This document shows, in pieces, positions 47,042 to 52,851 of a stretch of 64,000 nucleotides of DNA. The notes under the pieces are model-generated. The model was not told where the DNA came from. It did not search any database and was given only the letters and a program-made list of their open reading frames with translations. Origin of the DNA: Gemmatimonas phototrophica (GTDB lineage Bacteria > Gemmatimonadota > Gemmatimonadetes > Gemmatimonadales > Gemmatimonadaceae); NCBI RefSeq assembly GCF_000695095.2, contig NZ_CP011454.1, forward strand, positions 3,224,001-3,288,000. Reading direction: 5' to 3'. Made by a program: the position numbers and the translations under genes. Numbering within the stretch: the stretch's first letter is position 1; each line of letters begins with the position of its first letter.

Positions 47042-48475
47042 TTACCCTGCGTACGCGTTCACCATCACGGGGGTGGGTTCGTCCAGCGACGTGGTGATCA
47101 GAAAGAGCCGGGACGCACGCAAGGGCGCGATACGCCGAAGCTGCCGATAGCCGATCGTCGTACCGGAGGCAACGACAGGCCCGTCCGCACGATCCTCGTG
47201 CAGCTGCCACGCCGTAATGTGCTGCCCCTGCTCGATGCGCTCGCCGAGCTCAAGCACCGTGATGGGGGTACGCGACGATACACGCAGCGCGTGCACCCGA
47301 CGGTGTGCGTCGAGTGCCGTTCCGGTGCCCTCCGCGCTGAGGAGGCGTTGCGTACGCAAGGCCTTGAGCGCAGCCGCCATGCCGTGCAGGCGTTCCACGT
47401 CCGTGGTGTGAAATAGCCCCTCACGTGTTGGCGGCACGTTCAGCAGCAACTTGGAATTGCGCCCCACGCTGGTGAAATACAACGAGACCAGATTCTCCAC
47501 CGACCGAACCTGCGCATCTTCGGCCGCATGATAAAACCAGCCGGGCCTGATGGAGACGTCCGTCTCGCCGGGACGCCACACGTCACCGTCGGCGTGTCCT
47601 TGCTGTAGCGCCGCGATGACATCATCGCCGCTGGCGCCGATATACGGGACCGCCGATGACCGAATCGTACTCCAGCACGTTTCCCCGGCCACTCCACGCT
47701 CGTTGCCAATCCAGCGCACGTCTGGCCCCGCATCGGAAAAGATCACGGCCCGGGGTTGGCGCTCCCGCACCAGCCCCCAGATGCGTGGCCAGTCATACGT
47801 CTGACGCTTGCCATTGGGGCCCTCGCCGTTGGCACCGTCAAACCACACCTCCTGCAACTCTCCATAATTGGTGAGCAATTCGGTGAGTTGTGCGATGTAG
47901 ACGTCGTTATACCGTGGCGTATCGCCATAGGTGGGGTGATTCTGATCCCACGGGGAACAGTAAAGCCCCGGCTTGAGGCCTTCGGCGCGACAGGCGTCCA
48001 CGAACTCGCGCACCACATCGCCTTTCCCGTTCTTCCATGGGCTCGACACGACCGAGTGGGTCGTCGTGGCCGTTGGCCACAAACAAAACCCGTCGTGGTG
48101 CTTGGCCGTGAGGATCATGGCCTTGGCACCGGCGGCCCGGGCCGCGCGGGCCCATTGCCGGGCATCAAGCCGAGTCGGGTTGAACAGCGCCGGGGATTCC
48201 GTACCGTCTCCCCATTCCCGATCAGTGAAAGTATTGACGCCGAAATGGACAAACATCGCCACTTCGTCTCGCTGCCACACCAACTGCTCGGCCGTCGGGC
48301 GCGGACGGAGGGCCACGGGGGTCGCCTGCAGCGCCGAGGGGATCACCAGGCTCCCCACCGCGCCGGCGCCAACCACCGTGAGAAAGTCGCGGCGGCTGCA
48401 GTGGAAACCCGCGGCGTGTGAGGAGCCGGGCGCACCCGGCTGCAGACGAACGGTAGGAAACAGCGGTGAGATCAT
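47042..48475 (-). CDS. Alpha-L-fucosidase, GH29 family, Tat-exported
   Basis: A 477-residue glycoside hydrolase. ATG 48475 is chosen because an AGGG ribosome site lies just upstream; a second candidate is six codons earlier. A twin-arginine signal (SRRDFLTVVGAGAVGS) lies at about residues 28-43, unusually far from the N-terminus. GH29 motifs are WQRDEVAMFVHFGVNTFTDREWGDG, ILTAKHHDGFCLWPT and the nucleophile strand EVWFDGANG with the catalytic Asp near residue 210. The C-terminal part is a beta-sandwich. It cleaves alpha-linked fucose from external glycans. Single gene, with no fucose transport genes nearby. Confidence 0.9.
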   Translation of the reverse strand: MISPLFPTVRLQPGAPGSSHAAGFHCSRRDFLTVVGAGAVGSLVIPSALQATPVALRPRPTAEQLVWQRDEVAMFVHFGVNTFTDREWGDGTESPALFNPTRLDARQWARAARAAGAKAMILTAKHHDGFCLWPTATTTHSVVSSPWKNGKGDVVREFVDACRAEGLKPGLYCSPWDQNHPTYGDTPRYNDVYIAQLTELLTNYGELQEVWFDGANGEGPNGKRQTYDWPRIWGLVRERQPRAVIFSDAGPDVRWIGNERGVAGETCWSTIRSSAVPYIGASGDDVIAALQQGHADGDVWRPGETDVSIRPGWFYHAAEDAQVRSVENLVSLYFTSVGRNSKLLLNVPPTREGLFHTTDVERLHGMAAALKALRTQRLLSAEGTGTALDAHRRVHALRVSSRTPITVLELGERIEQGQHITAWQLHEDRADGPVVASGTTIGYRQLRRIAPLRASRLFLITTSLDEPTPVMVNAYAG

Positions 48476-48547
48476 GTCCCTAATCTGTCGCACGAATGCA
48501 TGGGCGCTACCTCACCAAACAACCTGCCGGACGGGACGTGTGGTGGC

Positions 48548-48952
48548 CTACGCCGCCAGACTGGGCAGTTGCACGATGTACTGGGTGCCAACATTCCCGC
48601 GTCGCTCTACGTCCACACGGCCACCAGCATCGCCAATGGCGTGGTGTACCAGCGCCAGGCCGAGATCCATCACCTCGGCTTCCCCCGACGAGCGTGTCGT
48701 TGCGAACGGATCCTGTTCACGCGAAAGGACCACCCTTCCCACCTCGATAATCGTCCGGGTACGACGACCGTCACCTCGGGTCACGTCTCCCAGACCGTCA
48801 TACGCGCACAGGGTGACGGTTCCGCCAACGGGCATGCTGTCGCGCACCAACAGCGCCAGATGAATCAGCACTTGCTCAAGTCGCGCGGACTGCACGAGGG
48901 GGCGTCCACTCGACGTATTCAAGACGTCCAGGGAGACCTGCGCCCCCAGCAA
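48548..48952 (-). CDS. C-terminal half of a histidine-kinase-like protein (ATPase-like domain), split by amber stop
   Basis: Residues in this 134-codon frame look like a degenerate HATPase domain: the ARLEQVLIHLALLVRDSMP stretch corresponds to the N-box helix of sensor kinases but lacks its key Asn, and the G-box is not recognisable; GDAGGRVDVERRGNVGTQYIVQLP resembles the final strands. The same frame is open upstream to the TAG at 49019-49021 and then runs without a break into the gene half at 49019-49621. On its own it has only a TTG start at 48952 and no ribosome site, so it is most likely the untranslated tail of a pseudogene, unless the stop is read through. Confidence 0.5.
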   Translation of the reverse strand: MLGAQVSLDVLNTSSGRPLVQSARLEQVLIHLALLVRDSMPVGGTVTLCAYDGLGDVTRGDGRRTRTIIEVGRVVLSREQDPFATTRSSGEAEVMDLGLALVHHAIGDAGGRVDVERRGNVGTQYIVQLPSLAA

Positions 48953-49018
48953 CGTGGGAAGCGTCTCATCGAGGTGGGTCAGGACTTCGTGGACGTTGGC
49001 TGGCGTTGATGACGTGCC

Positions 49019-49021
49019 CTA
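49019..49021 (-). other. In-frame TAG separating two halves of a kinase-like gene
   Basis: The amber codon ends the N-terminal half after LGSLEAS, and the frame stays open for 157 more codons. If it were read as an amino acid, the full product would be ~357 residues with membrane helices, a dimerisation-like helix pair and an ATPase-like domain in the normal order. Confidence 0.6.
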
Positions 49022-49621
49022 GCTGGCTTCGAGTGAGCCGAGTAAGCGAAGCCGTTGCGACGTGCGCGTGCTGACCGTGCGCATGTGGGTGAGCACCTGC
49101 CGGCCGTGGATGTCGGTGATTTGCGGCGCGAGCAAATCGGCGCCATCACCCAGGGCGTGCACCACATCGGCGACCTCGGCCGCCAACGCCGTTGACAGCT
49201 GTGCCACCAGCTGCTGGCGCTGCATCCGCTGGGATTCCTGTTGAGCCTCCAGCAATTGCCGGGCATGCTCGACGAGTTCCTGTTGTCCCTTGCGGTAATT
49301 CCGTAACGTCGCCCAGAGGAGGTATGTACACAGACCGAGGCCGAAGACGGTCAGCAGTGTGGATCCGACATCGAAAAGAACGGAGGGCTCCCGTGTTTCG
49401 TCGGCAAGTGAAATGACACCAACACGCCGCAACCAGTGCCCCACGACGGCCGCCGTCAAATGAGCCGTCACGACCAGACCGAAGCCGCGACGTGTGTGCA
49501 AGAACAGCGCGGAAAGGGACAGTGCCAACGCCAGCCCCCCCCACCGCAGCGCTTCTTCGCGCGCCACCATCTCGGGCACTGGGAGTTCAACAGGCATCCG
49601 TGAGAGTGTCGTACTTTTCAT
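49019..49621 (-). CDS. N-terminal half of a membrane histidine-kinase-like protein
   Basis: Start ATG 49621 has a GGGAG ribosome site. The 200-residue product has three or four membrane helices (about 20-110), a short coiled coil rich in Gln/Glu/Arg and a helix pair resembling the HisKA dimerisation domain (LSTALAAEVADVVHALGDGADLLAPQ), where the phospho-accepting His is replaced (a Glu or Asp stands in its place). The protein ends at an in-frame TAG exactly where the ATPase domain should begin. Either a decayed sensor kinase or a truncated membrane protein kept for another use. Neighbours are unrelated. Confidence 0.55.
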   Translation of the reverse strand: MKSTTLSRMPVELPVPEMVAREEALRWGGLALALSLSALFLHTRRGFGLVVTAHLTAAVVGHWLRRVGVISLADETREPSVLFDVGSTLLTVFGLGLCTYLLWATLRNYRKGQQELVEHARQLLEAQQESQRMQRQQLVAQLSTALAAEVADVVHALGDGADLLAPQITDIHGRQVLTHMRTVSTRTSQRLRLLGSLEAS

Positions 49622-49778
49622 CCGTCTCCCGTAGTGCTCCCGCATGGGATCTTGGTCCAACTGTCGGCCCGGCGGGTCACAAACCTGTTGGTCTCACACC
49701 AGCAGGTGGTGCGGGCACTATCTTCACACTATTCAAGTGATTCCCCTGTCTCCGTTCACTGCGCCCCGGAGTTCCCCC

Positions 49779-50087
49779 ATGTCCGATCAGAATACCGCGA
49801 CCGCCGAACACCGCTCCTGGCAGTGGGACCTTGTGCTGCAGTATGAAGATGGCTCGCTCCCCGCGTCCGCCTGGCACGAAGCCACGTTGACGGTCGTCAC
49901 GCAGTGGTACGTCAAGAATCTCCCGGAAGCGCAGGCGCGTGCGCGGTATGCGCAGTACTACCACCGCAATCGTCGCCGACTCACCAACCGACTCAGCGGT
50001 GCCAGTGTGGATATCGCGGCGCTGGAAGCTATTGACCAGATCTGGGAATCGTTGCTGGTCCGGGCTCTGAACGCGAAGTCGGCGTAA
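49779..50087 (+). CDS. Small protein of unknown function
   Basis: A 102-residue acidic-to-neutral, soluble protein without signal or membrane segment. ATG 49779 comes after GGAG seven to ten bases upstream; the open frame before it is not needed. Composition is Ala/Tyr/Trp/Gln-rich with a Trp-rich start (HRSWQWDLVL) and a helical Arg-rich middle (YHRNRRRLTNRL). I recognise no family. It is followed by a hairpin shared with the gyrA 3' end. Confidence 0.55.
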   Translation: MSDQNTATAEHRSWQWDLVLQYEDGSLPASAWHEATLTVVTQWYVKNLPEAQARARYAQYYHRNRRRLTNRLSGASVDIAALEAIDQIWESLLVRALNAKSA

Positions 50088-50187: not shown

Positions 50188-52647
50188 CTATTCGTCGGAT
50201 GTTGCAACAAATCCAACGGAGGTCATACCACCCGGCCATTCACTCAATTGCGTGGCCTTGATGGCACGGCCCACGATGGGCAGCTCTTGAAGGTCGGCGG
50301 CCACACTGGTCCCGGCGCCTGTAATGAAGGAAGCTGCGGCCTCCACCGTGACCGGCACCAGTCCGACGACCGAGCCGGCTTTTTCCGCCGCGGCCACCAT
50401 TTGCACACCTTGTCCGCCACGGCCCTGCAGGGGGATGGCCTCCACCGCCACGCGCTTCACGTAGCCGGCGCTGGTCCCCACGCACACCTCCTGCTGTGGC
50501 CCCACGACCGCCATGGCCACGACCCGGTCAAAGTCCTTGAGCGTAATGCCGCGGACCCCACCGGCATCCCGACCCATGTCCCGCACGTCCGACTCGTGGA
50601 AGCGAATCACTTGCCCAAGCGCCGTCGCCAGCACGAGATCGTCCTGCCCGGAGGTGATTCCGGCGCCAATGATCCGATCGCCCTTGTCGAGCCGAATGGC
50701 CTTGATGCCCGCCAGTCGCGCGTTCTTGAATTCCTTGATGACCGTACGCTTCACCTGGCCGGTGGCCGTCACCATGGTGACAAACAGCGGATGTGAGAAG
50801 TCGCGAACAATGGCCCCGAGCACCGGCGCTCCTTGACGCGGCCACTCCACCACGTCCTTGAGTGGCGTACCGCGACCGCTGCGGGCGGCGGGGGGCAGTT
50901 CGCCACCCAGGATGCTGTAGGCCTGCCCATCCTGCGACAAGACGAGCATCGATTCCGTTTGACGCAACCGCCCCCTGACCATGGGCAGTTCGTCAAGCGG
51001 CAGGTCACGTTCGGCGGCGTCAGTCTTGCGCGCTCGTCCCGACGGCAGCGGGGCCTGCAACACCCGACCACCGTACGTCACCACTCCCACGACCTCGGCG
51101 TCGGCCACGGTTTCGGCAACCTCGGCCGCGGCTTCGGCAGTGACAATCTCCGTGCGCCGCGCATCACCAAAGCGATCCACAATTTGCGCCACCTCTTCCG
51201 CCAGCGCGGCCATGCGCATGGCCGGGTTGGCCAACAGGGTCATCAGCTCCTTGATGCGCGCCTTGAGTTCCTTGGCCTCGGTCTTGAGCGCCGTGACTTC
51301 CAGCCCGGTGAGCTTGGCCAGGCGCAGCGCGAGAATGGCGTTGGCCTGGATTTCCGAAAGCGCGTATTCCTTGCGCAGACGGGCCTGCGCCTGCTCCACA
51401 TCCTTGGCGGTTTTGATGAGTTGCACGATCCGGTCAATATCGTTGACCGCAATGAGCAACCCTTCCACGATGTGCAGCCGGGCTTCGGCCTTGCTCTTCT
51501 CGAACTCCGAGCGCTTCACCAGCACATCGTGCCGGTGCGCAATGAAATGATCGATCAGTGCACGCAGTCCCAGCTCGCGCGGCACCAGCCGACCATGCTC
51601 AGGCACCAGCGTGAGGTTGATGACGCCAAAGGTGGTTTCCAGCCCGGTGAGCTTGAAGAGGCGCTCCAGCAGCTTCTTGGGCTCTGCGTCGCGCTTGAGT
51701 TCAATCACCATGCGCAATCCTTCGCGATCGGATTCGTCGCGCAGGGCGCTGATCCCCACCAGCTTCTCTTCCTTGACCAAGTCGGCAATCTGCTCAATGA
51801 TGCGGGCTTTGTTGGCCTGATACGGCAGCTCCGTGACCACCAACTGGGCGCGCGAAGACCCCGGCTTGGCCTCAAGTACGACACGCGCGCGGTTGATCAG
51901 GCGCCCGCGCCCCGTCTCCATGTACTGCTTGATGGCCTCTTTCCCTACGATCAGTCCGGCCGTGGGAAAATCGGGGCCCTTTACAATCTTGCGCAGCTCG
52001 CTGAGATCAACGGAAGGCTCTTCAATGACCCGGATGATCGCCTTGCCAATCTCGCGCAGGTTATGTGGCGGCATGTTGGTCGCCATTCCCACGGCAATAC
52101 CACTCACGCCATTCACCAACAGGTTGGGAATGGCGGCCGGAAGTACCGACGGCTCCTGCAGGCGATCGTCGTAGTTGGGGACAAAGTCCACCGTGTTCTG
52201 ATCGATCCCTTCCAGCAGCGCCACACCAGGGGCCGCCATGCGCGCCTCGGTGTAGCGATACGCGGCGGCCGGGTCGCCATCAATGCTGCCGAAGTTCCCC
52301 TGCCCTTCAATGAGCGGATAGCGCAGGGAAAAGTCCTGCACCATGCGCACGAGGGCGTCGTAGACACTGCTGTCGCCGTGCGGGTGATATTTGCCCAGCA
52401 CGTCGCCCACGACGGTGGCAGCCTTCTTGAACGGACGCCCCGGCGCCAACCCCAGTTCGTTCATCGCGTACAGAATGCGCCGGTTCACCGGTTTGAGTCC
52501 ATCGCGTACATCGGGGAGCGCACGCGAGGTGATCACGCTCATCGAATAATTGATGAACGAATCACGCATCTCGTCGGTGACCTCACGCGGCATGACGCGT
52601 TCGCGTCGGGGCGTGGGCATGGGGGCAGCTTTGGTACGCGGGGGCAT
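50188..52647 (-). CDS. gyrA: DNA gyrase subunit A
   Basis: An 819-residue type IIA topoisomerase subunit that cuts and reseals DNA. ATG 52647 is preferred over the longest frame. The catalytic Tyr132 is in the [11 protein letters not shown] motif. The quinolone region is [20 protein letters not shown], with Ser93 and Asp97 in the positions of E. coli Ser83 and Asp87, so it is of the susceptible-type sequence. The C-terminal pinwheel is present, with a degenerate GyrA box (QGRGGQG against the consensus QRRGG(R/K)G), which identifies it as GyrA rather than ParC with moderate certainty. Likely expressed alone; gyrB is not in the window. Confidence 0.9.
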
Positions 52648-52851
52648 TAACAGAACCGAAAGGGGTGGGGTTGCACGGCAAGACATCGCGGCAACCGCGT
52701 GGAACAATCAATAACTACAGTGACCGACAAACGACACAGCGCAGGCGAACCCATGGTGACTTTCACGGCGCCGCGGTCTCCTGCGATGGATTCCAGCGCT
52801 TGCCTTGACCGATCATATCCGCCTATGCAGTTTTGATACGTGCGTACAAAT

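Follow-up and report, generated by a model that had tools for sequence, protein, structure and literature searches.

The locus considered here raises the question of what a histidine-kinase-like gene has become once its reading frame is cut by a stop codon: is it a sensor kinase in decay, an inactive partner protein, or a gene whose amber codon is read through? These three readings were offered by an initial annotation of the window, a stretch of 64,000 nucleotides from Gemmatimonas phototrophica AP64 (assembly GCF_000695095.2, contig NZ_CP011454.1, positions 3,224,001 to 3,288,000), in which two halves of such a gene were seen in the same frame, parted only by a TAG (Table 1). That description was borne out. 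The distance from 49019 to 48548 is 471 nucleotides, or 157 codons, and the frame set by the ATG at 49621 resumes open past the stop. The gene lies on the minus strand with a good ribosome site ahead of its ATG, the plus strand of 48548-49621 contains many stops, and the G+C content at the three codon positions follows a coding pattern in both halves (0.71/0.46/0.73 in the 5' half and 0.72/0.47/0.71 in the 3' half).

Table 1. Features of the split kinase gene and its neighbours in G. phototrophica AP64 (window coordinates)
Feature	Position	Strand	Remark
Alpha-L-fucosidase-like gene, downstream neighbour	47042..48493	-	same place in G019 and G025
Closing TAG of the 3' part	48548-48550	-	
3' part (156 codons, open) coding for a degenerate HATPase (CA) domain that has lost N-box and G1	48551..49018	-	
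First in-frame start-like codon past the stop, TTG	48950..48952	-	anti-SD duplex -2.7 kcal/mol
In-frame TAG at the junction of the dimerisation and ATPase-like parts	49019..49021	-	opposite Leu (CTG) or Met (ATG) in three relatives
5' part (200 codons) coding for membrane helices followed by a long kinase-dimerisation-like helix	49022..49621	-	from translation
Ribosome-binding region (GGGAGA) ahead of ATG 49621, start of the 5' part	49622..49640	-	anti-SD duplex -7.4 kcal/mol
102-aa protein without family match, upstream divergent neighbour	49779..50087	+	
gyrA, neighbour	50188..52707	-	synteny anchor in all four species

When queried separately, the two halves match one and the same kinase family: the 5' half finds intact Gemmatimonas kinases (best E 3.5e-17), and the 3' half has 53% identity to syntenic homologs in three other genomes (G015, G019 and G025). 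The read-through sequence aligns with an intact kinase of G015 in a single alignment that spans the TAG (residues 26-370, 30% identity, E 4.9e-36), and in the same way with a paralog in the AP64 genome itself (L031, 147920-148900; residues 38-369, 31% identity, E 9.5e-32). Because single alignments to intact kinases cross the stop, the halves do not abut by chance; on this sequence evidence they are the two parts of one ancestral sensor-kinase gene. The domain order proposed for the joined halves (membrane helices, dimerisation-like helices and an ATPase-like domain) is also seen in an AlphaFold model of the read-through protein, which is of medium confidence (mean pLDDT 69). The model places helices at residues 16-43, 45-66, 81-164 and 171-199, giving membrane helices, a long helix with a hairpin partner and an alpha/beta domain of the ATPase-like type. 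Its best matches among solved folds are kinase cores, for example those of ZraS and CckA, with the DivL structure 4q20 included.

Comparison with the paralog L031, which retains all catalytic motifs, upheld the view that the phospho-accepting histidine is replaced and the N-box asparagine missing, and showed the loss to be wider than had been noted. The phospho-His region reads TTGLTHDLANVVQ in the paralog versus STALAAEVADVVH in the split gene, where the histidine has become alanine; the N-box reads NLALNARDAMP versus HLALLVRDSMP, with both asparagines replaced. The G1 motif (DSGVGI in the paralog) is reduced to EVG followed by a 4-residue gap, and the G2 motif (TGLGLA in the paralog) has become MDLGLA, so that its first glycine is gone. 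The Pfam HATPase_c profile is matched below threshold (18.5 bits against a cut-off of 26.4). An active histidine kinase of the HisKA plus HATPase_c type is contradicted by the alanine at the H-box, the lost N-box, G1 and G2 motifs and the sub-threshold HATPase_c match. Taken together, the alignments across the gene, the residues and the predicted structure indicate that the gene is a pseudo-histidine kinase, that is, one of kinase ancestry with a kinase-like fold that lacks the catalytic residues.

Orthologs of this gene were found in three other species only, all of them represented by Gemmatimonas metagenome-assembled genomes (MAGs; UKL202c, which is G015, the pond MAG C8_MAG_00034 and RE-15aug16-119). 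Neither half, searched against 179 genomes of the family, brought up another ortholog at the locus, and the AP64 5' half had no close ortholog; scanning genomes with the 3' sequence by itself gave no match, and scanning with the four-sequence alignment recovered the same three MAGs only. In four of four species the pseudokinase gene adjoins the 102-aa gene and gyrA. The fucosidase-like gene lies next to it in AP64 and in two relatives, whereas in the third, G015, a cupredoxin-like gene takes that place. Of 30 Gemmatimonas genomes, 14 carry a conserved copy of the 102-aa protein, for which Pfam, PHROG and NCBIfam gave no match; the genes around it vary by species. It served as a probe for the locus in other Gemmatimonas species, where its neighbours are different. 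Upstream of the AP64 start, the element CCAAGATCCCAT (49641-49660) recurs exactly ahead of the gene in each of the three relatives, within a spacer that otherwise aligns poorly, and may be a shared promoter or operator element.

It is in comparison with these homologs that the AP64 frame proves to be interrupted: none of the three relatives has a stop in the gene, and a sense codon stands opposite the TAG in each, as the initial annotation had envisaged. The intact motifs that it had thought might be found there are absent, the N-box and G1 having been lost from the uninterrupted frames of the relatives too (N-box QLALTVRDGM, G1 EVG plus gap, and GLQQ at G2), and an insertion of 7 residues, with the block AYDGLGDVTRxDGRRT, is common to all four sequences. 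Nor do the relatives carry two separate genes, an arrangement that it had named as one that would refute its reading: each has a single short gene that lacks the 5' dimerisation part and the whole H-box region. The protein of the relatives, as delimited by inferred start codons, has 224 residues and a lone predicted membrane helix, from which a variable linker of low confidence leads to an ATPase-like domain, with no dimerisation region. In a model of medium confidence (pLDDT 68-69 for this protein and the AP64 read-through form) the domain matches the CA domains of NtrB, CckA and VanS. Homology between AP64 and the relatives starts directly past the TAG.

The four degenerate domains form one clade in the tree (100/100), apart from the intact kinases. 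Among the relatives the ATPase-like domain has a dN/dS of 0.127-0.141, which shows that it was kept by selection after catalysis had been lost; preservation as a protein, part of what defines a pseudo-histidine kinase, is thus found for the ATPase-like part of the relatives, the region for which selection was measured, the AP64 5' half being without a close ortholog. Their N-terminal part is far less constrained (dN/dS of 0.6-1.5 overall, and from 0.6 to 8.7 in the linker, where counts are small). Within codons 45-76 of the 224-residue proteins L002, L004 and L029, which make up the linker, the differences are mostly amino-acid-changing, with no indels; either the linker is fast-evolving or the start has been wrongly chosen. 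The AP64 domain is not accelerated, its terminal branch measuring 0.21 and the stem of the relatives 0.61; in relative-rate counts, 3-11 sites were unique to AP64 and 8-17 to the relatives, depending on the outgroup. Across the AP64 split, dN in the domain is about 2.9 times that in gyrA, within the range of 1.6-5.8 seen among the relatives. All length differences between AP64 and the relatives in the domain are whole codons, and the AP64 3' part has no second stop or frameshift.

How long the 3' half might have gone untranslated can be bounded roughly. According to a simple simulation that allowed no indels, neutral drift of about 0.1 substitution per site would be enough to produce all of the amino-acid change on the AP64 branch. 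That branch carries roughly 0.7 synonymous changes per site, taken as half of a dS between AP64 and the relatives that is itself near saturation (1.35-1.6), so the rates are rough. An untranslated period of at most about one-seventh of the time since the split follows as a rough bound, and together with the slow AP64 branch it means that the stop arose late or that the 3' half is still made. As to order, the N-box and G1 losses are common to three unbroken relatives, so inactivity is older than the stop, and the sequences support the view that catalysis was lost before the stop arose. Of the earlier proposal that decay or inactivity preceded the stop, inactivity therefore stands; decay is not supported, the relatives having a dN/dS of 0.13-0.14 and the AP64 copy being the slower-evolving one.

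The explanation that we favour, to which we would give a probability of about 0.6, is that the locus holds a conserved pseudo-histidine kinase that acquired a nonsense mutation recently in AP64, and is most likely a recently broken gene. The gene would have originated as a paralog of a membrane sensor kinase still present intact in the same genome, and its ATP-binding residues would have been lost before the four species split. It would then have been retained without catalytic function, presumably as a binding partner tethered to the membrane, until a nonsense mutation struck in AP64 at the linker between the dimerisation helices and the ATPase-like domain, probably recently. Ordinary translation should now yield only the 200-residue membrane and helix part, which is why a broken gene is the likeliest reading, and function after the stop is probably nil. 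AP64 shows no trace of relaxed selection after the interruption, whether as acceleration, further stop or frameshift, and a young stop would look alike; set against the broken gene is that the lack of a second stop or frameshift is also expected of a 3' domain that is still translated.

First among the alternatives, although unlikely, is that the TAG is an assembly or sequencing error, the strain really having a sense codon and an intact pseudokinase. The stop is known from one AP64 genome, stands alone in an otherwise undamaged gene and is accompanied by no sign of relaxed selection on the domain, all of which would suit such an error; the genome is, however, a single closed contig of 99.96% completeness, and lone substitution errors are uncommon in finished genomes.

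The next alternative, which we regard as improbable, is that the pseudokinase has been split into a 5' membrane dimerisation protein and a separate 3' ATPase-like domain made by re-initiation or from its own start. The TAG falls at the domain border, just where the homology to the relatives starts, the AP64 3' part is well preserved, and the domain exists in the relatives without dimerisation helices and so can be useful alone. Against such a split stands the want of an evident start for a 3' product: a scan for anti-SD duplexes found no start codon with a ribosome site close past the TAG, and the first candidate, the TTG at 48952, lies 22 codons in, has a site weaker than the background median of -3.8 kcal/mol, and if used would cost the domain most of its first helix. 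Moreover, the domain of the relatives is apparently membrane-tethered, a tether that a free 3' product would lack. Ranked lower again, and doubtful, is an account in which the domain was selected throughout this lineage of kinase remnants as a membrane-tethered binding module, and was split at its border in AP64 into two proteins that still act together.

Least probable of all is that some ribosomes read through the amber codon and make the full-length protein: the frame is intact, and the 3' part has been conserved and has not accelerated, but TAG also terminates gyrA, the split gene itself and other neighbours, release factor 1 (RF1) is present in the genome, no CUA anticodon was found among five tRNA-like hits to a strict pattern that falls short of a full tRNA census, and the 100 nt past the stop show no unusual RNA fold (z -0.78). 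This last value also led to the rejection of an RNA-structure signal for read-through, and the suggestion of read-through in the initial annotation thus gained no positive support. Nothing points to read-through or re-initiation; low-level production of the 3' half is possible. The preferred reading, a recently broken pseudokinase gene, offers a small and datable case in which a sensor kinase loses catalysis, is kept in a non-catalytic form and is later broken or split. The relatives present an unusual minimal form, in which one predicted membrane helix carries the degenerate ATPase-like domain and dimerisation helices are lacking. For annotation, the locus is to be described as a pseudo-histidine kinase with an internal stop and not as a sensor kinase.

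A literature search returned no data on the split-kinase locus, and its nearest points of comparison are kinases and kinase-like proteins known from elsewhere. The intact Gemmatimonas sensor kinases (L031 in the same genome, and L003, L005-L007, L030, L050 and L052) have the same order of membrane, dimerisation and ATPase regions and about 30% identity to the split gene across nearly the whole length. They keep the phospho-His and the NxxxNARDAM, DxGxG and GLGL-type motifs, whereas the split gene has lost the histidine along with N-box and G1, is shorter in its membrane region and carries the extra 7-residue stretch in its ATPase-like domain. In ChpT-type phosphotransferases an ATPase-like domain that binds no ATP follows a pair of dimerisation helices. 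The split gene has weak similarity to the Pfam family of these histidine phosphotransferases (PF10090, E 0.00093), but the phospho-accepting histidine, essential for phosphotransfer, is alanine in the split gene; a ChpT-like phosphotransferase was rejected on this missing histidine and on a PF10090 score of 19.4 bits against a cut-off of 22.9. DivL of Caulobacter is a pseudo-histidine kinase in which the phospho-His is replaced and the kinase fold persists without kinase activity, and DivL of Magnetospirillum has alanine at that position (PMC4211667), as does the split gene. DivL nevertheless keeps the N, G1, F and G2 boxes, weak ATP binding and PAS domains (PMC4211667), whereas in the split gene, comparable to it in principle, the ATP-binding boxes are lost too.
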